Part shown: piece after piece, positions 16,864 through 48,554 of the stretch
Numbering within the stretch: the stretch's first letter is position 1
How the letters are laid out: every line of letters begins with the position of its first letter
From: Anaerotignum sp.
GTDB taxonomy: Bacteria > Bacillota > Clostridia > Lachnospirales > Anaerotignaceae
Length of the DNA: 54,571 nucleotides
Reading direction: 5' to 3'
Assembly: GCF_030625865.1 (NCBI RefSeq)
Contig: NZ_DAOUQB010000020.1
Location: forward strand, 1 to 54,571
Position numbers and translations under genes: made by a program
The notes under the pieces: model-generated
The model's input: the letters and a program-made list of their open reading frames with translations, nothing else
Databases searched by the model: none
What the model was told of the DNA's origin: nothing

Positions 16864-19677
16864 TTAGTTCAATGTAGCTGTCTTTGTTGAAGCATCCCAA
16901 GATACGTTTGTTACGCCCAAAGCTGTACCTAAATCTCTCAAAGGCAAGTATGTTCTGCCGTTTGTGATTTCAGGAGCTGCGGATGTAGGGATAGAAGAAC
17001 CATTTACATAAACTGTCTTCTGACCAACTGTCATGGAGATGATTCTCTGTGCGTACATAATTGTTACTGTTCTTGTTTCAGCGTTCCACAATACGTTGTT
17101 TGTGTCTACGCCAAGAGCCTTGGATACTGCTCTTACAGGAAGCATTGTGTAACCAGCTGCGCTGATGTATGCAGGTGCATCCAATTCAACTTTTGCTTCG
17201 CCAGCAACCAAGTAAGATTCGCCAACAGGTACTACAACCTTTGTTGTGAACATGTTGTTCTTATCAACACCAGCTGTTACTACGTTGATGAATGCTTCTT
17301 TAACAACATCGCTGTAATCGCAAACGTCATCAATGTAGCTGTCTTCCTTAACATCACCAGTCTTAGGACGGTCATCGCCTAAATCCCAATCATCTGCATT
17401 ACCTTTATTTGTCAATGTATCTGCATCAGGTGCGTAAAGAACCTGTCTGTCATATGCATCGCTCATAACTGTGGAGATTTCCAAATCATAAGCACCTGCA
17501 GGGATGTTTCTCTGCATAAACAATGCCATATCGGAGATTGTTACTGTTGCAGCTTTGTCATCAGATTCATCATCTACTGTGAATACCAATGTACCCTTGT
17601 CAGTGTCTTCATCTTTCAACTTCATATCGGAATCGCTGTCTACTGTAAATGTAGCATCATCTTCGAACTCAAGAAGATCATCTTCAATGTTCAATTTGAA
17701 CAAATCATCAACATCTTTTTCCCACAAGCCAGCTTCTGCTTCTGTGATAACGATAGGAGTCTTAACTTCTGTGTTTCTGTAATCGATAATTACATCGTTC
17801 TGTTCTGCCTTAACTGTGTAAGGTTTTGTAAATTTAGCGATTGTTACTTCCTGTTCGTCAACTAAATCGCCTTCGAATTTCAATACAACATCGCCTTCGA
17901 AAGTAGGATCAGCTACCAACTGCAGTTTGAATGTTACAGTTGCAGGATCTTCTTCCAATTCTGTGTTTACATCATTGAATACTCTCTTTTCGAATTCGAA
18001 ATTCGTGTGATCGCCATCCTGGTATGCTGTGAAGAATGCATCCTGCCAATCATCAGCATCGACAGCTTCATCAGCGGAACCCTGAACAAAGTTTTCTGTA
18101 TCTGTAACATCAACATCTGTTACATAAACGCCTTCAGGCAAGTTGAAGTTGAAACCTTTTCTCATGGACCAAGCGCCAGGGAAAGTTTCTTCAGCTGTTA
18201 CTTCCAAAGACCAGTGATCGGAATCATCTGTCAAACCTTTGTTATCAACGTTAGTACCGCTGTAGATTACAGGAAGATCTTCATCTTCATCAACAGTAAG
18301 GTCTACTTTGTAATCGCAAACTTTAGCTACTTCTACTTTTTCTGTATCACTGAAAGTACCAGCAACATCACTATCTTTTAATGCTTTAACTGTCAAAGTA
18401 GCAACAGAACCAGATTTAGCGGATGTAGCTTCGATTTCGATATCATCGCCATCGATTGTAAATTCATCAGTGCCAGCACCAATATATTTTACTGTTACTT
18501 CGTTGTCATCAATAGTACCAAAAGTATACTCTGTAGTATCTTTTACTTCACTGAATTCAAAACCATTAGACAGTTTCAATTCAAATTCTTGATTCTTTAC
18601 AAAATCGCCAACTGCGGATTCGATTTTCAAACCGTTGCTGTACAGAGTTTGTTTTTCATCTTCAGCAATATCAACTGTCTTCTTGATAGAAACTTTAATT
18701 CCATCGCCAAGGATAGAAGCAAAAACTAAATCGTCAACAGTAACAGCCTTAGAATCAACGGAAACGGAAGCCTTTGTGCCTTCAGAAGTTTTTGTCAACT
18801 TTGTATCAAGATCGATAACGATTTTATCGTCTTCATCAAATTGACCATAGAATTTAAATGTAACACTGTTTTCAGTAACATCTTTAACTTCTAAGCCAAT
18901 TTCGCCATGTTCAGTATCGATGTCAGAGCCAGAACCAACTTCATCTTCCTTTACATAAACATAATCTCCAGCTAAAGCATCTGCAATTACAGCTGCCTTA
19001 GATTTTACTGTAATACCTTCTGCAATTTCAGATGTTGTATACAATGCCTGATCTGCTGTAGCTTCAAAGGTAATGTCACCATATCCACTAACAGTAACAG
19101 TCTTTGGCAGACTAAGTATATCAATGGTGTAATCACCACTAGCATTTGCAGCATAACCTGCTGAAATCAATGCCTCTTTTAAATCATCGCCTGCTAAAAC
19201 TACTGCTGAGAAGTCAGACACAAATGTGTCCTGATCAATTTCACCATCGACTTTCTTTGCGAAACCTTCAGCATCAGCTTCAGTTGTTTCTACATATTCA
19301 GTTGTAGAAGTACCAGGATGGTATACACCAGCACGCAGATTAGAATCTTCATCCTTTACTAATCCTACCAAAGCGCGCAAAGCCGCTTCATTTTCTGCAT
19401 CGGTTTTATCTTCATCATAGCCAACAAACTCTGCATTGTCTAAATCAAGATCAAACTCCAAGCTAGGTGTAGCATCACTTGTGTAATCAGCTGAGTCAAT
19501 TTTGATTTGTAATTCTGGACCATCGTTGTCTTCAAAAACAAGTTTTTCGCCTTTTTCCATGTCTTTGGCGTCAACGATTTTAGCTGTTGCTGAAACATCG
19601 CCTTTTGCAAATGCAGTTGCAGGTACAAGGGAAGCTACCATAGCGCCAGCCATAACGAAAGAAATAAACTTCTTCAT
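16864..19677 (-). CDS. Large surface protein with C-terminal stalk (CuAO-N) domain, paralogue A
   Basis: A 937-residue acidic, beta-rich, cysteine-poor exported protein. The signal peptide is residues 1-25 (MKKFISFVMAGAMVASLVPA, cut after TAFA). The last 120 residues are a copper amine oxidase N-terminal-like (stalk) domain: GYTMLPVRAVSKALGV near residue 845 and GRTYLPLRDLGTALGV near residue 910, which usually mediates surface attachment or assembly. The middle is repetitive beta-sandwich-like sequence, very similar to the next gene (for example DEDEDLPVIYSGT, TFPGAWSMRKGF, LPEGVYVTDVDV). Size, acidity, tandem paralogue, optimised-looking codons, long leader and strong promoter suggest an abundant surface-layer-like protein; that role is inference. 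AAGGAGG precedes the ATG. Confidence 0.8.
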   Translation of the reverse strand: MKKFISFVMAGAMVASLVPATAFAKGDVSATAKIVDAKDMEKGEKLVFEDNDGPELQIKIDSADYTSDATPSLEFDLDLDNAEFVGYDEDKTDAENEAALRALVGLVKDEDSNLRAGVYHPGTSTTEYVETTEADAEGFAKKVDGEIDQDTFVSDFSAVVLAGDDLKEALISAGYAANASGDYTIDILSLPKTVTVSGYGDITFEATADQALYTTSEIAEGITVKSKAAVIADALAGDYVYVKEDEVGSGSDIDTEHGEIGLEVKDVTENSVTFKFYGQFDEDDKIVIDLDTKLTKTSEGTKASVSVDSKAVTVDDLVFASILGDGIKVSIKKTVDIAEDEKQTLYSNGLKIESAVGDFVKNQEFELKLSNGFEFSEVKDTTEYTFGTIDDNEVTVKYIGAGTDEFTIDGDDIEIEATSAKSGSVATLTVKALKDSDVAGTFSDTEKVEVAKVCDYKVDLTVDEDEDLPVIYSGTNVDNKGLTDDSDHWSLEVTAEETFPGAWSMRKGFNFNLPEGVYVTDVDVTDTENFVQGSADEAVDADDWQDAFFTAYQDGDHTNFEFEKRVFNDVNTELEEDPATVTFKLQLVADPTFEGDVVLKFEGDLVDEQEVTIAKFTKPYTVKAEQNDVIIDYRNTEVKTPIVITEAEAGLWEKDVDDLFKLNIEDDLLEFEDDATFTVDSDSDMKLKDEDTDKGTLVFTVDDESDDKAATVTISDMALFMQRNIPAGAYDLEISTVMSDAYDRQVLYAPDADTLTNKGNADDWDLGDDRPKTGDVKEDSYIDDVCDYSDVVKEAFINVVTAGVDKNNMFTTKVVVPVGESYLVAGEAKVELDAPAYISAAGYTMLPVRAVSKALGVDTNNVLWNAETRTVTIMYAQRIISMTVGQKTVYVNGSSIPTSAAPEITNGRTYLPLRDLGTALGVTNVSWDASTKTATLN

Positions 19678-20421: not shown

Positions 20422-22653
20422 TTAGTTGCTGCCGTTTAATGTTGCTGTTCTTGTAGCTGCATCCCATGTGATATCAGTTACGCCCAAAGCTACTGCCAAA
20501 TCTCTCATAGGAAGGAAAGCTCTGCTGCTTGTGATTTCAGGTGCTGCGGATGCAGGGATTGCAGAACCGTTTACATAGATTGTTTTCTGTCCAACTGTCA
20601 TGGAAATAATTCTCTGACCGTACAGAATTGTGATTGTTTTGTTTTCTGCGTTCCACAATACGTTGTTTGTGTTTACGCCAAGAGCCTTGGATACCGCTCT
20701 TACAGGAAGCATTGTGTAGCCAGCTTCACAGATGTAAGCAGGTACATCCAATTCAACTTTTTCTTCACCTGCAACTAAGTAAGATTCACCAATGGGTACT
20801 ACTACTTTTGTTGTGAACAGGTTGTCCTGATCTCTACCGCTTGTTACAACGTTGATGAATGCTTCTTTTACTGTGCTGCTGTAATCGCAAACATCTTCAA
20901 CAATCTGGTCGTCGCCGTCTGCTGCATAGATAGCCTGTGCATTGTAAGCAATGTCCATAGTTGTTTCCAAGTTCAAGTCATAAGCGCCTGCAGGTACGTT
21001 TCTCTGCATGAACAATTCGATATCTTTAATTTCTACGGTTGCTGCTTCATCAGATTCGCTCTTTACAGTAAATGCAAGCTCACCGTCTTCTGTTTTTTCA
21101 TCTTTCAATTCCATATCGGAATCTTCATTTGCTTCGAAAGTTGCGTCATCTTCAAACTGAATCATGTCGCCTCTGTCTACTGTGAATGTGAATACAGAGT
21201 CTGTATCCCACAAACCAGCTTCAGCTTCTGTGATAGTGATAGGTGTTTTTACTTCTGTGTTTCTGTAGTCGATTACTACGTCGTTCTGTTCTGCCTTAAC
21301 TGTGTAAGGTTTTACAAATTTTGCTACAGTTACTTCCTGGCTGTCAACCAAAGCGCCTTCAAAGCCCAATACTACGTCGCCTTCGAAAGTAGGATCAGCT
21401 ACCAACTCTAACTGGAATGTAACACTTGCAGGATCAGTTTCCAATGTTGTGTTTACATCGTCAAATGTTCTCTTTGCAAATTCAAAGCCTGTGTAATCGC
21501 CTTTGTTGTAAGCTGCATCAAAAGCTGTTTCCCATTCAGCTGTGCCAACTGCTGCACCATTCTGAACGAAGTTTTCTGCTTCGATAACGTCTACATCTGT
21601 AACGTATACGCCTTCAGGCAATGTGAAGTCGAAGCCCTGTCTCATGGACCAAGCGCCGGGGAAGGATTCTTCTGCTGTTACTTCCAAAGTCATATGATCG
21701 GAATCATCTGTCAAGCCTGTGTTGTTTACGTCTGTACCGCTGTAAATTACGGGGATATCTTCGTCTTCATCAACGGAAAGAGTTACTTTGTAATCAACAA
21801 CTTTTGCTACTTCTACGGAAGCTGTACCAACGTTTTTCGCTGTTACTTTGATTGTTGCAACATCGCCAACATTTGCTGTTGTAGCTTCTACTTTGATACC
21901 TGTCAAAGTAAATTCATCAGCGGAAGGTGCTGTAAATGTAGCTTCATTGTCATCAATTGCCCAGTCAGCAATACCAGCTACAGTTGTGTTTGTGAATTCG
22001 AAACCTTTGGAAAGCTTCAATGTGAATTCTGTACCAACTGCATAGGAATCATCTACTGTGGGTTCAATTTTCAAACCTTTGCTGTCAAGCTCAGCTACTT
22101 CGTCTACTGCTACGTTCACTGTTTTCTTAACGGAAACTTCGATGCCGTTGTCTAATACAGAAGCATAAACCAAGTCATCCGCTGTTACCATATCGGAATC
22201 TACAGATACGGTTGCAGTTTTACCAACATTAACACTTGTCATTTCGGAAGCCAGGTCAATTGCTACAATATCGTCTTCTGCAAGTGCACCTTCTAAAGTA
22301 TAAGTTACTTCATCTTCTGAAAAATCTGTTGCTGTTACTGTAATTCCTACAGGTGCATCAACCAACGCTTCAAATGCTGCTGCATCTGCTGCTGTGAACT
22401 CTGCATTGTCCAAAGATACTGTTACATCAGCTGTAGGTGTAGCACCACCTGTTACCTGATAATCAGCATTTGTGACTTTTAACTGCAATTCAGGTGCATC
22501 GACAGCAGCGATCACGCCGTCAAAACCTTCGCCTTTTTCCAAAGCGTCGACTACTTTAGCTGTAGCGGTAACATCTCCTGCTGCAAACGCAGTTGCAGGA
22601 ACAAGAGAAGTAACCATAGCCGCAGCCATTACGAAAGAAACTACTTTCTTCAT
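20422..22653 (-). CDS. Large surface protein with C-terminal stalk (CuAO-N) domain, paralogue B
   Basis: A 743-residue exported acidic protein, paralogue of the product of 16864-19677. The signal peptide (MKKVVSFVMAAAMVTSLVPA, cut after TAFA), the central beta-rich block (DEDEDIPVIYSGT, SFPGAWSMRQGF, LPEGVYVTDVDV, NDVVIDYRNTEVKTPI) and the C-terminal stalk domain (GYTMLPVRAVSKALGV, SRAFLPMRDLAVALGV) align. It lacks about 190 residues, mostly in the N-terminal third. The long near-identical stretches point to tandem duplication followed by divergence. It has its own promoter with the same architecture, and its own terminator. No cysteine-based or catalytic motif was seen; a structural role on the cell surface is inferred. 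Confidence 0.8.
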   Translation of the reverse strand: MKKVVSFVMAAAMVTSLVPATAFAAGDVTATAKVVDALEKGEGFDGVIAAVDAPELQLKVTNADYQVTGGATPTADVTVSLDNAEFTAADAAAFEALVDAPVGITVTATDFSEDEVTYTLEGALAEDDIVAIDLASEMTSVNVGKTATVSVDSDMVTADDLVYASVLDNGIEVSVKKTVNVAVDEVAELDSKGLKIEPTVDDSYAVGTEFTLKLSKGFEFTNTTVAGIADWAIDDNEATFTAPSADEFTLTGIKVEATTANVGDVATIKVTAKNVGTASVEVAKVVDYKVTLSVDEDEDIPVIYSGTDVNNTGLTDDSDHMTLEVTAEESFPGAWSMRQGFDFTLPEGVYVTDVDVIEAENFVQNGAAVGTAEWETAFDAAYNKGDYTGFEFAKRTFDDVNTTLETDPASVTFQLELVADPTFEGDVVLGFEGALVDSQEVTVAKFVKPYTVKAEQNDVVIDYRNTEVKTPITITEAEAGLWDTDSVFTFTVDRGDMIQFEDDATFEANEDSDMELKDEKTEDGELAFTVKSESDEAATVEIKDIELFMQRNVPAGAYDLNLETTMDIAYNAQAIYAADGDDQIVEDVCDYSSTVKEAFINVVTSGRDQDNLFTTKVVVPIGESYLVAGEEKVELDVPAYICEAGYTMLPVRAVSKALGVNTNNVLWNAENKTITILYGQRIISMTVGQKTIYVNGSAIPASAAPEITSSRAFLPMRDLAVALGVTDITWDAATRTATLNGSN

Positions 22654-28638: not shown

Positions 28639-28660
28639 CCTTATGCTTTCAAATTAAAAT

Positions 28661-28751
28661 TGCTTCCCTCCGTTGGTGCTAACCACATCAAGTTCAAAGG
28701 GTTGGAAAACGAATTCCTCTCAGCTTTGATAAATCAAAGCACCCCCAGCCT
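28661..28751 (-). promoter_or_regulatory. TPP riboswitch (thi box)
   Basis: Reading the minus strand, the aptamer has the GGGGGTGC start, the CTGAGAGGA motif, then ACCCTTTGAACTTGAT and GTTAGCACCAACGGAGGGA. These are the two conserved pyrophosphate and pyrimidine sensor segments of the thi box. It controls tenA and the thi transporter. Confidence 0.95.
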
Positions 28752-28774
28752 TTTTATTAAGTTGTATTGATTTC

Positions 28775-33812: not shown

Positions 33813-34079
33813 TCCGTGCATCTGTTTTTGTTACAACGCCCGACACGTTACCGTGTTCCACGACTCCTCTCCAGCACCCTTACAACACACAGAAGTAGAC
33901 TGCTTAGTGCTGCTGCCTTCCGACCCTGACACGATTCACAGGCTCCTATTGCGTAAGACCAAAGCATCAACGCCACTTTCCACGGGCAGGCTGTCAAGCG
34001 CTGTACCGAGAACAGACATCACCCTCACTATAGCGGATTGTGAGTACAGGGCACCGCTACCTCCCCGGCTAGCACGGAA
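33813..34079 (-). ncRNA. ffs: Signal recognition particle RNA, large Gram-positive type
   Basis: About 267 nt. The minus strand carries the universally conserved SRP domain IV segment GTCAGGGTCGGAAGGCAGCA followed by GCACTAAG, with the tetraloop GGAA. Near the 5' end it has GCTAGCCGGGGAGGTAGCGG and GCCCTGTA, typical of the Alu domain of Bacillus/Clostridium scRNA. The ends pair (CCGTGC at the 5' end, GCACGG at the 3' end). Position between tadA and dnaX matches Bacillus subtilis scr. Exact ends are set by this pairing and could shift by a few bases. Confidence 0.95.
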
Positions 34080-43964: not shown

Positions 43965-44282
43965 TTATCCAATGATTTTATCAAGCTTCTGCTTCAGAAC
44001 TGTAGGAGGAGTTACACCAATCACAGCATCCACAGGCTTTCCATCCTTGAAAATTAACATATTCGGTACACTCATAATTTGATATTTCTGTGCTAAATCC
44101 ATGGATTCATCAATATCAACTTTAAATACTTTTGCCTTTCCTTCATACTCAGCGGAAAGCTGTTCCAAAACAGGGCCCATCATTTTACAAGGTCCACACC
44201 AAGTAGCTGAAAAATCAACCAAAACAGGTACACCGCTCTCAATTACTTCTTTTTGAAATTTATCCGATTTAATCTGCAACAT
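43965..44282 (-). CDS. trxA: Thioredoxin
   Basis: General disulfide reductase. The 105-residue protein has the active site W28-C29-G-P-C32 in FSATWCGPCKMMGPV and the cis-Pro loop IMSVPNMLIF. Length and fold are normal. TAGGAGG precedes the ATG. The gene has its own promoter and terminator. No thioredoxin reductase is in the window. Confidence 0.96.
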   Translation of the reverse strand: MLQIKSDKFQKEVIESGVPVLVDFSATWCGPCKMMGPVLEQLSAEYEGKAKVFKVDIDESMDLAQKYQIMSVPNMLIFKDGKPVDAVIGVTPPTVLKQKLDKIIG

Positions 44283-44678: not shown

Positions 44679-45719
44679 TTATAGCTCAAATTTCATAGTA
44701 AACGAAACAACTCCCGTTTCATTGGGTGCAATGGTCTCCGGCGGTAAATAGAACCCAATCCCATCCTCCGTTAAATAATATCCAACTTCATCCATACATT
44801 TCTCTAAGCGTTTTTTTGCATCTGCATAAAAACTTTCTGGCTTTTCATCAATGAGTGTGCCAAAAGAAGTGTTCCAAAATTCTTGCATCTCTTCTTCGCT
44901 ATCTGCAATCAAGTTAAAAAGTTCTATTTCCGCCCCGCTTCTGGCATTAAAAGTGTGAGAAAAACAATTTTTTATATTATCACTTTTCCCGATATCTTGT
45001 GTACTTGTCCCATAAAAGGACACCATCTCGCTGTTATCCCTTGTCATTTCATAGGAACCAATATAAGAATAAGGTGTAAAGGAATTACCCCCGTCTTTTT
45101 TCTGTTCATACTCTTTTTTGGCTTTTTCGCCGTAATCATCTATAAAATCCTTTGCAGATTCTTTGGCTTCATCCTCCAGTATTTTCTGGATTTTATCTGC
45201 GGCATTACTGCTGCTTCTTGGAAAATCCATTTTGAAAGATAACACTGTGGTACCATCTTCCGCCTCTACCGTAGTTTCATAGCCATTCTCTTCTCCCTCT
45301 TCCGGAGAAAAAATGGTAATTACATAACCAACAGGATCCCAATCCACCTCAGCATCAAAAGCCTCCGCAATGGCGCGGATAGGTACCATTGTTCTGTCGC
45401 TCATGATACAGGCAGGCACAGGCATGGTATAAATAAGCTGTCCGTTTTTATAAAGGCCCGTTTCTCCAATGGTTAATACAAGGGTATCTCCATCTTTTGT
45501 TGAAGTAATGGTTTTTGTGGGTTCAGACCAAGAAACCTCACTGCCCAAGGCTTGAAAAATTGCCCGCATGGGCACCAGCGTACGATCGTTTACAATAACA
45601 GGCGCCTGATCAAAGGAAACTGCCTGACCATCTACATATACTTGTATGGGCGGATAAGCAAATGCCACCGTTGCAAACAGCAAAGTGCCCGCTACCGCTG
45701 CCAAGATACTCTTTTTCAT
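44679..45719 (-). CDS. Exported stalk-domain protein with DUF4163/DUF3298 C-terminus
   Basis: The start at 45719 has AGGTGG 7 nt upstream. A 346-residue protein with signal peptide (MKKSILAAVAGTLLFATVAFA). The N-terminal half is a complete copper amine oxidase N-like domain: VNDRTLVPMRAIFQALGSEVSW and SDRTMVPIRAIAEAFDAEVDW. The C-terminal half matches the RsiV/PdaC-type DUF4163-DUF3298 domain (ESAKDFIDDYGEKAKKEYEQ, ELFNLIADSEEE, YYLTEDGIGFYLPPETIAPNETG). Probably surface or wall associated, maybe lysozyme- or peptidoglycan-sensing; not proven. It follows the C_GCAxxG gene by 17 bp, so the two are an operon. Confidence 0.82.
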   Translation of the reverse strand: MKKSILAAVAGTLLFATVAFAYPPIQVYVDGQAVSFDQAPVIVNDRTLVPMRAIFQALGSEVSWSEPTKTITSTKDGDTLVLTIGETGLYKNGQLIYTMPVPACIMSDRTMVPIRAIAEAFDAEVDWDPVGYVITIFSPEEGEENGYETTVEAEDGTTVLSFKMDFPRSSSNAADKIQKILEDEAKESAKDFIDDYGEKAKKEYEQKKDGGNSFTPYSYIGSYEMTRDNSEMVSFYGTSTQDIGKSDNIKNCFSHTFNARSGAEIELFNLIADSEEEMQEFWNTSFGTLIDEKPESFYADAKKRLEKCMDEVGYYLTEDGIGFYLPPETIAPNETGVVSFTMKFEL

Positions 45720-45736: not shown

Positions 45737-46255
45737 TTAGTTTTCCTTTGCTACTGCATCGTTTTCCTTTGCCATTTCTTCTGCCTTTAAGGCATATTTC
45801 ATGGCCAAACCACCGCAATACCCAATAATTTCCATGCAGTTTTTCTTTCTTGCCTTTCCTTCAAACTCACCCAAGGGAGAGGAAAGTTCTTTGCAAATTA
45901 AGGTTCCATAGTGATCCTCAATTTCTTGAATCATTTCCCCTACCAGGGAATAAACCCCTTTTAACTCGAAAATTCTTTCTCTGACTGTTTCTTTTGCAAA
46001 AGGGTCTTTTCTGCCAATGGCACTGCTCAATGCCATAACCGCACCTGTAATTGCACCACAGGTATTTTTTGTTTCTCCCATGCCAGAACCAAAGCCCGTT
46101 GCCAGCGCCATACATTCTTTGGGCATGTCTTTATTGTAAATATCTAAAAAAGTACACATAATACATTCCGTACAATTCAAACCTTGGCGAAAATAATTGC
46201 TGCTGTTTTGCTCCGCCTGTTCCACCAGTGTTAATTCCTTGTTTTCTTCGTTCAT
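45737..46255 (-). CDS. C_GCAxxG_C_C family redox protein
   Basis: Member of the C_GCAxxG_C_C (putative redox) family, small proteins of unknown activity often near redox genes. The start at 46255 has AGGAGG 8 nt upstream. 172 residues. Cysteine pattern: LNCTECIMCTF near residue 24-34, NTCGAITGAVMAL (the CGAxxGA core) near 61-73, then ICKEL and KNCMEIIGYCGGLAMKYAL. The family-typical Cys set appears complete. It is divergent from the ferredoxin operon across a promoter region with two palindromes. Confidence 0.88.
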   Translation of the reverse strand: MNEENKELTLVEQAEQNSSNYFRQGLNCTECIMCTFLDIYNKDMPKECMALATGFGSGMGETKNTCGAITGAVMALSSAIGRKDPFAKETVRERIFELKGVYSLVGEMIQEIEDHYGTLICKELSSPLGEFEGKARKKNCMEIIGYCGGLAMKYALKAEEMAKENDAVAKEN

Positions 46256-46284
46256 GATAAATCCTCCTGTCCTTATTTGCATTG

Positions 46285-46299
46285 CGTAACAAAGTTACG
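46285..46299. promoter_or_regulatory. Palindromic operator candidate, CGTAAC-AAA-GTTACG
   Basis: A perfect 6-bp-arm inverted repeat between two divergent redox operons. The GTAACnnnGTTAC form is reminiscent of Crp/Fnr-family sites; a Crp/Fnr gene is 1.1 kb away. Confidence 0.5.
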
Positions 46300-46303
46300 G
46301 AAC

Positions 46304-46324
46304 ATAGCAAAAGTCTTATGCTAT
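46304..46324. promoter_or_regulatory. Second inverted repeat, ATAGCA...TGCTAT
   Basis: 6-bp arms with a 9-bp spacer, 4 bp after the first palindrome. It could be a second operator or overlap a -10 element (TATGCT at 46317). Confidence 0.4.
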
Positions 46325-46377
46325 CATCATACCATAAAATTATAAAACTTTCTCTAAAATTCGAAAGGATGAACACA

Positions 46378-46578
46378 ATGAAAAAATTAGTAAAAATAAA
46401 TTTAAATAAATGTCCCCAAAACCATCGCTGTCCCTCCGTATGGGTTTGCCCTGTAGGTGCCTTAACCCAGGAAAATAAATTTTCTGCGCCGAAAATTCAT
46501 GAAGATCTTTGCATCGGATGCGGAAAATGCGCTCGGGTTTGTCCGAAAAAAGCGCTCTATATGGATGAGGGGGTCTGA
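46378..46578 (+). CDS. Ferredoxin-like 4Fe-4S protein, first
   Basis: A 66-residue protein. The start at 46378 has GAAAGGATG upstream. The C-terminal cluster motif CIGCGKCARVCP is standard. The N-terminal motif is odd: CPQNHRCPSVWVCPVGAL, a spread cysteine set that differs from CxxCxxC, with three rather than four obvious ligands before the later Cys. It may hold one normal and one atypical 4Fe-4S cluster. It ends 1 bp before the second ferredoxin gene. Confidence 0.85.
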   Translation: MKKLVKINLNKCPQNHRCPSVWVCPVGALTQENKFSAPKIHEDLCIGCGKCARVCPKKALYMDEGV

Positions 46579-46579
46579 A

Positions 46580-46780
46580 ATGAAAAAAATTGCAACATTA
46601 TCAAGAAACGCCTGTGTATCCTGCGGGTGCTGTGAAACAGCTTGCCCTAAAAATGCCATTGAAATCTATAATGGCATATATGCCAAGGTGGATCAAGACC
46701 GTTGTATTGGCTGCGGTCTATGCAAGAAAGCCTGTCCCGCTGATATTATTTCTATAAAGGAGGTTGATTCCATTGGCTAA
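46580..46780 (+). CDS. 2[4Fe-4S] ferredoxin, second
   Basis: A 66-residue protein that starts at ATG 46580, directly after the TGA of the first ferredoxin. Two standard cluster motifs are seen: CVSCGCCETACP (residues 12-23) and CIGCGLCKKACP (43-54). It overlaps the next gene. A separate ribosome binding site is weak (GGGGTC), so translation is probably coupled to the upstream gene. Likely electron carrier to the membrane Fe-S protein. Confidence 0.9.
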   Translation: MKKIATLSRNACVSCGCCETACPKNAIEIYNGIYAKVDQDRCIGCGLCKKACPADIISIKEVDSIG

Positions 46781-47345
46781 GAAAAAAAATTGGTACGACT
46801 ACCTCTGGATTGTCTCTACACTTTATATTATCCTAGGATTTTTTAATATATTATTTGCTTGGCTTGGGCTATTATGTTTTTTAATCCCTTTGGTGATGTC
46901 CTTGACGGGTGGAAAAAAAGGCTATTGCAACCGTTATTGCGGCAGAGGACAGCTTCTTACCCTTTTAGGAAAGAAGTTCTCAAAAAACTTACCCATTCCG
47001 AAATGGATTTCCAGTAAATGGTTTCGTTATGGCTTTTTAGCCTTCTTTTTGACCATGTTTTTTAATATGACATTTTCCACCTATTTGGTTTTTGCAGGCA
47101 CAAATAGTCTAAAAGAAGTTGTTACCCTGCTTTGGAGTTTTTCCCTGCCTTGGCACTTTGCTTCTTCTTCGGCACCTGTGGCCCACTGGGTCAAACAATT
47201 TGCTTTTGGCTTTTACAGCCTTATGCTTACTTCAACTTTGCTGGGACTGGTCACCATGGTATTATTCCGTCCCCGTACCTGGTGTGTCTATTGCCCCATG
47301 GGTACCATGACACAGCTTGTATGTAAGGCAAAATATAAAGAATAA
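46773..47345 (+). CDS. Membrane 4Fe-4S protein, NapH/NosR-like
   Basis: I choose TTG 46773 with AAGGAGG 9 nt upstream; a TTG at 46764 sits directly on that site. About 190 residues, with four to five helices. Two cytoplasmic Cys motifs are visible, CNRYCGRGQLL near residue 51-61 and CVYCPMGTMTQL near 171-182, as in the polyferredoxin-like membrane domain of NapH/NosR. It is a short version without the extra ferredoxin domain, which seems to be supplied by the two upstream genes. A quinone- or membrane-linked redox relay is inferred. Confidence 0.8.
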   Translation: MAKKKNWYDYLWIVSTLYIILGFFNILFAWLGLLCFLIPLVMSLTGGKKGYCNRYCGRGQLLTLLGKKFSKNLPIPKWISSKWFRYGFLAFFLTMFFNMTFSTYLVFAGTNSLKEVVTLLWSFSLPWHFASSSAPVAHWVKQFAFGFYSLMLTSTLLGLVTMVLFRPRTWCVYCPMGTMTQLVCKAKYKE

Positions 47346-47361
47346 TTTTTACTCTTTCTTG

Positions 47362-47391
47362 GGTATCATTGACATCAATGGTGCCTTTTTT
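47362..47391 (+). terminator. Terminator of the ferredoxin operon
   Basis: GGTATCATTG and CAATGGTGCC arms (with G-T pairs), 4-nt loop, then six T residues. It touches the end of the convergent crp gene. Confidence 0.7.
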
Positions 47392-48049
47392 AAAGCAATG
47401 CATAGAGCTCTTTTTTATCCAACAAGTGAATGCAGCCACGGCCTACGGAAATCAGTTTCTTCTCCTTCATCCGCTTTAAGGTACGGCTGACTGCCTCCCT
47501 GGCACTGCCAATATTCTCCGCAATCTGTTCTTGCGTTAAATATAAGGTATCATTTTTGCGCTGACTGCTTTCATCCAAAAGATAGGATGCCAAGCGCTGC
47601 TCCAAATTCAAAAACATCATTTGTTGTACCGCTTCCACTAAAGATGACATCCGCTCCATCATTAATTCCAGCGAAAAATTTTTCACATAAATATTTTCCT
47701 GCTCCACACTGGAAAATAATTCTGTGGGTAAAAGCAACAAACGACAATCCTCACAAGCCTCCACCTCTACATCAAAGGTAATCTGTGACATGGCGCAGGA
47801 CATGGTTAACATACAAAATTCGCCCTCATGCAGGCGAAAAATGGTAGCTTTTTTTCCCTCTTCGGAAATTAAATAAGCCCGTACTGCCCCCTTTAATACC
47901 TGAACCATTCCCAAAGATCCTTTTGCAGGGGAATAAATCAAATCACCCTCTTGAAATTCCAGAATTTTTATATTGTTTTGCAGTAAATCTTTTTCTTCCT
48001 TTGTAAGATTTGAAAAAAAGGGTAGCCCCTCTATTTTATTGGGAATCAT
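47390..48049 (-). CDS. Crp/Fnr family transcription regulator
   Basis: A 219-residue regulator with an N-terminal cyclic-nucleotide-binding-like domain (residues 10-125, containing LKGAVRAYLISEEGKKATIFRLHEGEFCMLT) and a C-terminal winged helix (about 145-212, LTQEQIAENIGSAREAVSRTLKRMKEKKLI). The sensor domain resembles the clostridial group that has a Cys-containing CMLTMSCAMSQ segment, so a redox, Fe-S or metabolite signal is possible rather than cAMP. AAAAGGAGG precedes the ATG. It faces the ferredoxin operon and is divergent from an HTH-less relative. Confidence 0.92.
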   Translation of the reverse strand: MIPNKIEGLPFFSNLTKEEKDLLQNNIKILEFQEGDLIYSPAKGSLGMVQVLKGAVRAYLISEEGKKATIFRLHEGEFCMLTMSCAMSQITFDVEVEACEDCRLLLLPTELFSSVEQENIYVKNFSLELMMERMSSLVEAVQQMMFLNLEQRLASYLLDESSQRKNDTLYLTQEQIAENIGSAREAVSRTLKRMKEKKLISVGRGCIHLLDKKELYALL

Positions 48050-48087
48050 ATAACTCCTCCTTTTTAGCGAAACACTGACTTGATTTG

Positions 48088-48116
48088 ATTTTATGATGTT
48101 GTTTAATAATTGTCAA
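48088..48116 (-). promoter_or_regulatory. Promoter of the crp/fnr gene
   Basis: On the minus strand TTGACA (48111-48116), 17-bp spacer, TAAAAT (48088-48093). Confidence 0.75.
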
Positions 48117-48132
48117 GGATTCCTTGCTTGAC
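48112..48132. promoter_or_regulatory. Palindrome between the divergent crp-like promoters
   Basis: CAAGG-ATT-CCTTG at the centre with outer GTCAA and TTGAC. It overlaps both -35 elements, so a bound regulator could repress both genes. Confidence 0.5.
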
Positions 48133-48156
48133 GCAAACTTTGGTTCATGCTAAAAT
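48128..48156 (+). promoter_or_regulatory. Promoter of the HTH-less Crp-like gene
   Basis: TTGACG (48128-48133), 17-bp spacer, TAAAAT (48151-48156) preceded by TGC. Confidence 0.75.
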
Positions 48157-48185
48157 CCACCCATATCTATACGGAGGTACAAAAG

Positions 48186-48554
48186 ATGAATACGCATTTA
48201 GAATTATTACAAGCACTCCCCGTTTTTCGAAAGATATCTCCTCAAGGACTGCAAACCATGATGGATTGCTTTTGCGGAGAATTTCTTACTCTGAAAAAGG
48301 GAGATTTTTTTTGGAAAGAACAAAAAAAGGCTGTGTGCTTAATCAACGGAGCAATATCCAACCTACAAAAAGGCACCTTTGCCCCCATACCCACAAAAGC
48401 TAACCCCTCTTCTGTTACGGAGGATAGCCTTATTTTAATCATGGATAGCCATATGCTTCTTTATCCCTGTTATGGTTGCTGCTTCTTTCATGCACAATTA
48501 TTGGAAAATATGCGGGAGGATGGCATAGATTTCAAAGCTTTGGGAACCCAATAA
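48186..48554 (+). CDS. Crp-like sensor domain protein without a DNA-binding domain
   Basis: The start at 48186 has GGAGG 8 nt upstream. 122 residues. The N-terminus (LELLQALPVFRKISPQGLQTMMDC) and the KKGDFFWKEQKKAVCLINGAI segment resemble the Crp/Fnr sensor domain. LILIMDSHMLLYPCYGCCFFHAQLLENM matches the end of that domain, where clostridial Crp-family proteins carry a C...C.FH..L..N pattern. It stops there, with no winged helix. Five Cys (CFC, CYGCC) could bind a metal or an Fe-S cluster. It lies divergent from a full Crp/Fnr gene and has its own promoter, so it looks maintained and not just a decaying fragment. Confidence 0.7.
   Translation: MNTHLELLQALPVFRKISPQGLQTMMDCFCGEFLTLKKGDFFWKEQKKAVCLINGAISNLQKGTFAPIPTKANPSSVTEDSLILIMDSHMLLYPCYGCCFFHAQLLENMREDGIDFKALGTQ

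Follow-up and report, generated by a model that had tools for sequence, protein, structure and literature searches.

What does a compact block of six redox-related genes do for Anaerotignum sp., and which of these genes belong together? The block lies at positions 45737-48554 of contig NZ_DAOUQB010000020.1 (assembly GCF_030625865.1), a contig of 54,571 nucleotides within a 2.75-Mb genome; we refer to this whole stretch as the window. All six genes named in the initial annotation are present, in the order and orientations it gave. Two ferredoxin genes (Fd1 and Fd2) and a gene for a short NapH-like membrane protein are flanked by a divergent gene for a C_GCAxxG_C_C protein and by a convergent Crp/Fnr regulator gene (CrpA), beside which a Crp-like protein without a DNA-binding domain (CrpB) is encoded. 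It had been suggested that the block could be a self-contained membrane electron relay with its own redox sensor pair. Sequence comparison points to a real unit that is narrower than this, Fd1-Fd2-NapH with CrpA, and to a regulatory result that is stronger than expected, with a predicted operator in class II activator geometry. In our view, this unit has an even chance of being a dedicated ferredoxin-to-membrane module for thiol/sulfane-sulfur redox chemistry. Its features are as follows.

46285-46299, no strand: palindromic operator CGTAACAAAGTTACG, the proposed CrpA site, whose arms do not vary among those aligned genus members in which the operon is retained
46319-46327, plus strand: predicted extended -10 element (TGcTATcAT) for transcription of Fd1-Fd2-NapH, conserved across the aligned genus members
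46378-46578, plus strand: Fd1, a ferredoxin in which the first motif is odd (C-x5-C-x5-CP) and the second normal
46580-46780, plus strand: Fd2, a 2[4Fe-4S]-type ferredoxin with two normal motifs, the constant partner of the NapH-like gene
46773-47345, plus strand: short NapH-like membrane protein (Fer4_5), with four long helices taken as membrane helices
47390-48049, minus strand: CrpA, a Crp/Fnr-family regulator (Pfam HTH_Crp_2 and cNMP_binding), the proposed activator of the operon
48088-48116, minus strand: canonical promoter of CrpA (TTGACA-17-TAAAAT), identified by eye in a conserved block

The three operon genes touch or overlap, as had been claimed: one nucleotide separates Fd1 from Fd2, and Fd2 overlaps the NapH-like gene by 8 nt if the latter starts at 46773. 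Homologues of the NapH-like protein are found in 32 of 60 genomes among relatives (E up to 1e-3) and in 41 of 293 genomes drawn evenly from the class (E up to 1e-20), the genome of the window being included in both, and also in records from Treponema, Spirochaetaceae and Synergistaceae. We compared gene neighbourhoods at 139 loci, to which 144 loci were reduced at 97% identity; 80 loci came from one NapH search, are the best 80 of at least 521 and lean towards the query. Loci L001-L030 (L and G numbers are our handles for loci and genomes) were excluded from the counts, all but L010 and L027-L030 having been refetched or duplicated with longer flanks, and L076 was excluded as no NapH open reading frame (ORF) was called there. 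Genes were called with a hexamer scorer into which NapH and ferredoxin ORFs were forced, and neighbour families are BLAST/Louvain clusters, each named from one representative and not member by member.

Across these loci, the linkage between Fd2 and the NapH-like gene is retained. A ferredoxin gene lies within six genes of the NapH-like gene in 129 of the 139 non-redundant loci, nearly always directly before it; in 124 it is directly upstream on the same strand, and in 121 of these the gap is 20 nt or less. The earlier view of ferredoxin and membrane protein as one unit is therefore well founded. A Crp/Fnr gene is found within six genes of NapH at 60 of the 139 loci, and its share of all genes in the full set falls steeply with gene rank (8.9, 2.0, 0.5 and 0.2% at ranks 1-2, 3-4, 5-6 and 7 or more). 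In the even class sample, a Crp or ArsR gene occurs at this distance in 23 of 38 loci. Co-occurrence of the set as a unit in other Clostridia, the check proposed initially, is seen for the ferredoxin-NapH core and, at the 60 Crp/Fnr loci, for the regulator, and not for the C_GCAxxG protein (13/139) or for the CrpB class, which was found at two loci outside the genus. The first cluster motif of Fd1, CPQNHRCPSVWVCP, is as unusual as had been noted, and it recurs in genus members. Ferredoxins with the first motif CPQNHxCPxxxxCP, with three cysteines only, were also seen near the NapH loci L016, L018, L145 and L151.

The promoter of the operon carries a palindrome, CGTAACaAAGTTACG (CGTAAC-N3-GTTACG), that is strictly conserved in the genus. 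The exact operator occurs only at this promoter, in six of eight genus genomes: once each in G000, G002, G003, G004 and G005 and twice in G007, which has two copies of the locus. Neither G001 nor G006 has the exact operator. Sites with a single mismatch elsewhere in the genome number one in G000, one in G003, three in G005 and four in G006, and the two sites of the one-mismatch form in G000 are fewer than those of its backwards control (16). Outside the genus, related palindromes, TGTGAY-N3-RTCACA-like, are found in other Crp-linked loci. Counted as YGTRAY-N3-RTYACR with at least five of six arm pairs, upstream of the operon, a pattern that was generalised from palindromes of the same loci before counting, an operator is present in 30 of 60 Crp-linked loci, in none of 13 ArsR-only loci and in 17 of 66 loci with neither regulator nearby (Fisher p 0.0005 and 0.006). 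After mononucleotide shuffling of the Crp-linked sequences, the count averaged 0.06 and never exceeded 1, and the entire 794 kb of the 60 Crp-linked loci holds 42 sites.

Since the pattern was drawn from the counted loci, the spacing between the operator and the -10 element is the stronger test. In the window, the -10 box begins 30 nt past the operator centre. Of the 47 loci that have an operator, 37 show the best -10 hexamer beginning 29-30 nt after its centre; displacing the centre lowers this count to 0.5 of 47 on average and to 3 at most; the same spacing is seen in 32 of 41 loci after exclusion of the genus and in 23 of the 30 Crp-linked loci with a site. Of eight genomes, five carry the strict form, TGTGAYNNNRTCACA, at one to three sites each, and the remaining three lack it. 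Additional sites in G027 and G339 fall inside called ORFs, and the sole two exact sites in G315 precede its ferredoxin-NapH genes and a C_GCAxxG gene, both with a 29-nt spacing.

Class II Crp-type activators bind near -41.5, and the position of the -10 element would place the operator near this point, a geometry predicted from the promoter sequence. Because there is one exact operator per locus copy, at the class II activator position, the convergent CrpA is very probably the operon's own regulator. CrpA contains both a cNMP-type sensor domain and a Crp helix-turn-helix. It lacks the N-terminal [4Fe-4S] cysteine cluster of the Fnr type, its cysteines being located only at positions 79, 85, 99, 102 and 206. 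Two of them form a C79-x5-C85 pair, of which C79 is present in 58 and C85 in 59 of the 60 aligned Crp neighbours of NapH loci.

Within the genus, the window and five other genomes share all six genes in identical order. Among the named organisms surveyed, Anaerotignum neopropionicum is closest, with a NapH-like protein of 87% identity. Four of the genes are under purifying selection, with pN/pS values of 0.09-0.14 for CrpA, 0.14-0.16 for NapH, 0.09-0.20 for the C_GCAxxG protein and 0.23-0.42 for CrpB. Nevertheless, the six genes are not one obligate unit, and we rejected this reading on the evidence of the sister genome G001, which keeps the C_GCAxxG gene and CrpB despite the loss of the operon. 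This genome has no NapH match and neither Fd1 nor Fd2 at the locus; its CrpA is broken, with a match confined to residues 4-77 of 219; by eye, the operator is degenerate, and no site of one mismatch or fewer occurs in the genome. One deletion may explain the gene losses, the adjoining palindrome having decayed in place as judged by eye. In G006, another genus member, the NapH copy is a different one, of 64% identity, and is followed downstream by an ArsR gene. We also observed two identical stretches of 14,573 bases with the whole locus on one A. neopropionicum contig (L035 and L169, ~154 kb apart), which represent either a large segment duplicated recently or an error in the assembly. The features that fall outside the narrower unit are listed here.

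45737-46255, minus strand: C_GCAxxG_C_C protein, the divergent neighbour (PF09719, 84 bits against a cut-off of 27)
46326-46334, minus strand: possible back-to-back extended -10 element (TGgTATgAT) of the C_GCAxxG gene, assigned by eye in a conserved block
48128-48156, plus strand: canonical promoter of CrpB (TTGACG-17-TAAAAT), identified by eye in a conserved block
48186-48554, plus strand: CrpB, a sensor-only Crp derivative of 122 aa, whose motif YPCYGCCFFHAQLL does not vary among seven genus sequences

The C_GCAxxG protein also exceeds the NCBIfam cut-off (76.5 bits against 47.4); a longer form starting at 46282 is possible, but the ribosome site belongs to the start at 46255. If the back-to-back -10 element serves this gene, the operator would lie downstream of the gene's start. 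Six of the 13 NapH loci with a C_GCAxxG gene nearby belong to this genus, and the gene occupies position +1 of NapH in four loci; its association with NapH outside the genus is weak. C_GCAxxG genes are present in 26 of 40 genomes with NapH and in 18 of 40 without, a difference that is not significant (Fisher p 0.12) in sets unmatched by family (35 genomes of the class sample plus 5 relatives, against the first 40 of the class sample lacking a match at 1e-20). An operator was found at one of the 30 C_GCAxxG loci examined, out of 47 matches, and this single case is the G315 locus. On these two grounds, we rejected the C_GCAxxG protein as a general partner. A search of PDB sequences with it found no convincing relative. 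The G315 gene itself stands alone (L239:815-1201, minus strand), with the operator at 1501-1515, class II spacing and a leader of ~280 bases.

CrpB is separated from CrpA by a gap of 136 bases and is probably a gene separate from the operon. It has no Pfam match at E 0.1 and no DNA-binding domain, in line with the initial description; ORF lengths range from 119 to 135 aa in genus members and reach 148 aa in L182. In Foldseek, the predicted structure of CrpB (pLDDT 86.7) resembles sensor domains of the cyclic-nucleotide-binding/Crp type, with E down to 1.2e-4 and a probability of 1.00; TM-scores normalised by query length are mostly 0.4-0.6. The pN/pS values and the invariant motif led us to reject the possibility that CrpB is a decaying relic. 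CrpB and the protein encoded at L182:1492-1845 (minus strand) are both short proteins with the motif CYGCCFFHAQLLxN, and full-length relatives, including a paralogue in the genome of the window (L186:1396-2076, plus strand), carry CxxxCxFHxxLxxN. Outside the genus, a full-length Crp gene of the CrpB class was found near NapH and a CrpA-type gene at L109 and L121. Of the relay originally proposed, the ferredoxin-NapH unit and its very probable own regulator CrpA are retained in the comparison, and the sensor pair is rare outside the genus.

What kind of protein lies at the centre of this unit? The NapH-like gene most likely starts at the TTG at 46773, with an alternative at 46764 (from which residues are numbered here), and ends at 47345. 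The protein matches Pfam Fer4_5 with 28.4 bits (cut-off 22), and its AlphaFold2 model (pLDDT 92.1, pTM 0.85) contains four long helices, as in the four-helix Fer4_5-type membrane module. It scores 13 bits against the NCBIfam model of NapH (TIGR02163; curated cut-off 213), and NapH proper was rejected accordingly. Rather, it resembles the membrane module of NapH, NosR and PceC minus the attached ferredoxin or flavin domains. With NapH of the periplasmic nitrate reductase it has in common this module, two cysteine motifs and small Fe-S protein partners (there NapG and NapF). It differs from NapH, which has a C-terminal 2[4Fe-4S] domain and two CX3CP motifs, in carrying C55-x3-C59 without proline and C174-x2-C177-P, and in ending 16 residues past C177 with one further cysteine, C187. 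No nap genes were seen by eye in the window, and, as stated initially, no nitrate, nitrous oxide or hydrogenase genes were noted by eye in its list of ORFs of at least 120 aa.

The four cysteines C55, C59, C174 and C177 are invariant in all 136 aligned sequences, as are K52 and R61; three of the 139 sequences had been dropped because the match was too low or short. Both cysteine pairs follow an even-numbered helix, so that they would lie on the same side if the long helices are membrane helices, and basic residues near the pairs suggest that this is the cytoplasmic side. A PDB sequence search with the NapH alignment gave no convincing relative, and a second structural comparison of the model with 38 chains gave no row above Z 2.3, a negative that extends only to the families among those chains. 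In Wolinella NapH, the first cysteine motif is required for the interaction with NapF (as cited in PMC5928378), and the sections of that article used here assign no function to the cysteine motifs of the NapH and NosR membrane domains. The flavinylated NapH-like systems (PceC/RdhC, NosR) surveyed in PMC8238504 have the same membrane module, common to several oxidoreductases, and, in the portion of that survey drawn on here, the presence of an FMN-binding domain within the gene cluster is what defines them. No FMN-binding domain was matched in the six window proteins or among the 25 neighbour families listed of 187.

Part of the neighbourhoods in other genomes hints, by analogy, at thiol and sulfane-sulfur chemistry. 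Within six genes of the 139 NapH loci, we found thioredoxin (35 loci), CoA-disulfide reductase type proteins (20), rhodanese (13), CcdA (11), the catalytic subunit of ferredoxin-thioredoxin reductase (6) and thioredoxin reductase (5). Thioredoxin makes up 4.8, 1.6, 1.4 and 0.7% of genes at ranks 1-2, 3-4, 5-6 and 7 or more in the full set. A search with one 564-aa neighbour reductase placed CoA-disulfide reductase entries of comparable length closest and matched a CoA-persulfide reductase as well. In the even class sample, a Pfam tally of 142 of 162 neighbour ORFs, those left out including 8 short ones, gave HTH_Crp_2 (11), Rhodanese (9), ArsR (HTH_5; 9), Thioredoxin (8), Pyr_redox_2 (7) and C_GCAxxG (3). 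HxlR-type regulators, with 10 proteins in the same tally, are almost as common there as Crp.

Alternative regulators at other loci point in the same direction as the sulfur-related neighbours. An ArsR gene lies within six genes of NapH at 14 of the 139 loci, and at position +1 in L113, L119, L125, L126, L132, L134, L136, L140, L145, L147, L157 and L161. In eleven of these 12 proteins, one cysteine falls in the region of the second helix and another near the C-terminus, a placement that we take to be like that of BigR and SqrR. BigR/SqrR-type proteins sense sulfane sulfur. For one of the proteins at +1, the best NCBIfam match is BigR (69 bits, below the cut-off of 155), and PDB matches include HlyU, YgaV, a BigR entry and 6o8l, which we take to be SqrR; judged by sequence, the ArsR alternatives thus resemble BigR. 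Genes of the kind found in BigR/SqrR regulons and in CoA-disulfide reductase-rhodanese/CcdA operons adjoin the ferredoxin-NapH pair in some other genomes, but none lies within the window block.

We infer the following mechanism. Fd1, Fd2 and NapH would be expressed as a single operon and form a minimal membrane redox module, in which Fd2 (and Fd1) would dock on a bare NapH-type membrane domain. The two NapH cysteine pairs, on the cytoplasmic side, would pass electrons between the ferredoxin pool and a thiol/sulfane-sulfur redox system. CrpA, of a class with a conserved cysteine pair, would bind one palindrome centred near -41.5 and activate the operon on sensing oxidised or persulfidated thiols. 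A bolder version, which we put forward tentatively and consider rather doubtful, is that the bare NapH is a ferredoxin-powered membrane thiol/persulfide reductase, a DsbD/CcdA-like relay under the control of a cysteine-switch Crp or, in other species, a BigR-like ArsR. The dedicated ferredoxin would then supply the electrons, and the regulator would turn the module on when sulfane sulfur or disulfides accumulate.

Several observations weigh against a thiol/sulfane-sulfur module under CrpA control. The block in the window contains no thiol or sulfur gene, so that the function is assigned by analogy, and the nearest thioredoxin gene in the window (43965-44282) is five genes away on the other strand. 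Elsewhere, any such gene is found within six genes at only 49 of the 139 loci and at 11 of 38 in the even class sample, where thioredoxin thins only weakly with distance (4.1, 2.3, 1.8 and 1.7% over the same ranks); CcdA shows no steady fall even in the full set (0.9, 0.2, 1.2 and 0%), and HxlR regulators, GGDEF and acetyltransferase families are also found near NapH. No solved structure matched the NapH-like model, all results of a fold search having an E of 3.6 or more. As to regulation, half of the Crp-linked loci lack the operator and 17 loci without a nearby Crp or ArsR possess it, the counting pattern was not independent of the loci, and in one genus member (L171) the best -10 element by the scoring used lies elsewhere. 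A third cysteine of the class, present in 51 of the 60 aligned Crp proteins, is a serine (S45) in CrpA. Among the ArsR proteins, L147 lacks the second cysteine, and three further members of the ArsR cluster are without the pair. The hint of sulfur chemistry fits part of the neighbourhoods elsewhere and finds no counterpart in the window block.

The main rival to thiol/sulfane-sulfur chemistry is defence against nitric oxide (NO), or more broadly a nitrosative/oxygen stress module, in which ferredoxins induced by a Crp/Fnr sensor would supply a detoxifying reductase located elsewhere in the cell; we regard this as unlikely. Its precedent is HcpR of Clostridioides difficile, a Crp/Fnr protein that, in the part of PMC12915319 used here, activates the neighbouring ferredoxin-like frdX ~220-fold under NO. 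The HcpR-frdX-hcp system resembles the window in having a Crp/Fnr gene beside a ferredoxin-like target, whereas the window system adds a membrane-protein partner and the regulator neighbours of NapH carry the C-x5-C pair. Also in favour of a stress module, desulfoferrodoxin- and rubrerythrin-like clusters (the latter named by eye) each occur near three of the 139 NapH loci. Against it, these clusters are far rarer than thioredoxin, and the ArsR alternatives resemble BigR. No hcp-like cluster of at least three loci was noted by eye near NapH, where no search was aimed at hcp.

Quite unlikely, in our estimate, is a ferredoxin:quinone (or quinol) oxidoreductase in which the ferredoxins replace NapG and NapF. 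Homology to the NapH membrane module favours it, quinol oxidation having been proposed for that module in the passages of PMC5928378 and PMC8238504 drawn on here. Against it, the second cysteine motif is CX2CP and the first lacks proline, and no respiratory reductase is found among the 25 neighbour families listed. Furthermore, many carriers of the NapH-like gene are fermenters that presumably lack quinones. A role in supplying electrons for the maturation or repair of Fe-S, selenium or metal enzymes, with the C_GCAxxG protein as partner, appears very unlikely: the divergent gene in the genus, its position at +1 in four loci and the paired operator sites of G315 speak for such a partner, but the operator at just one of 30 C_GCAxxG loci, the lack of significant co-occurrence across genomes and the retention of the gene in G001 argue otherwise. 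A chance neighbourhood of unrelated redox genes, which may still account for the C_GCAxxG gene and CrpB but is already unlikely for ferredoxin, NapH and CrpA, is exceedingly improbable as an explanation of the block given the gene order kept in six genus genomes, the near-constant ferredoxin, the concentration of Crp at the closest ranks and the conserved operator spacing, even though neighbours outside the ferredoxin-NapH pair vary and 66 of the 139 loci have neither Crp nor ArsR within six genes.

Some further features of the window were recorded. Beside the C_GCAxxG gene, positions 44679-45719 (minus strand) encode a protein that combines a PdaC domain with a copper amine oxidase N-terminal domain and whose cluster is found at the same rank in six loci. 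Two long, similar tandem proteins at 16864-19677 and 20422-22653 are secreted and S-layer-like by eye. An Rfam scan of the window found only a TPP riboswitch (28648-28756) and a large SRP RNA (33814-34077), both far from the six-gene block.

Much of the metabolism of strict anaerobes depends on ferredoxin, and the link between the ferredoxin pool and thiol/sulfur homeostasis at the membrane is poorly known. Among the papers listed in searches of the open-licence PMC literature, we noted none that describes this combination. The module is compact and recurrent and comes with a proposed regulator, operator and start site, which makes it directly testable, and its membrane protein would represent a naturally occurring, very small version of the NapH/NosR membrane domain.

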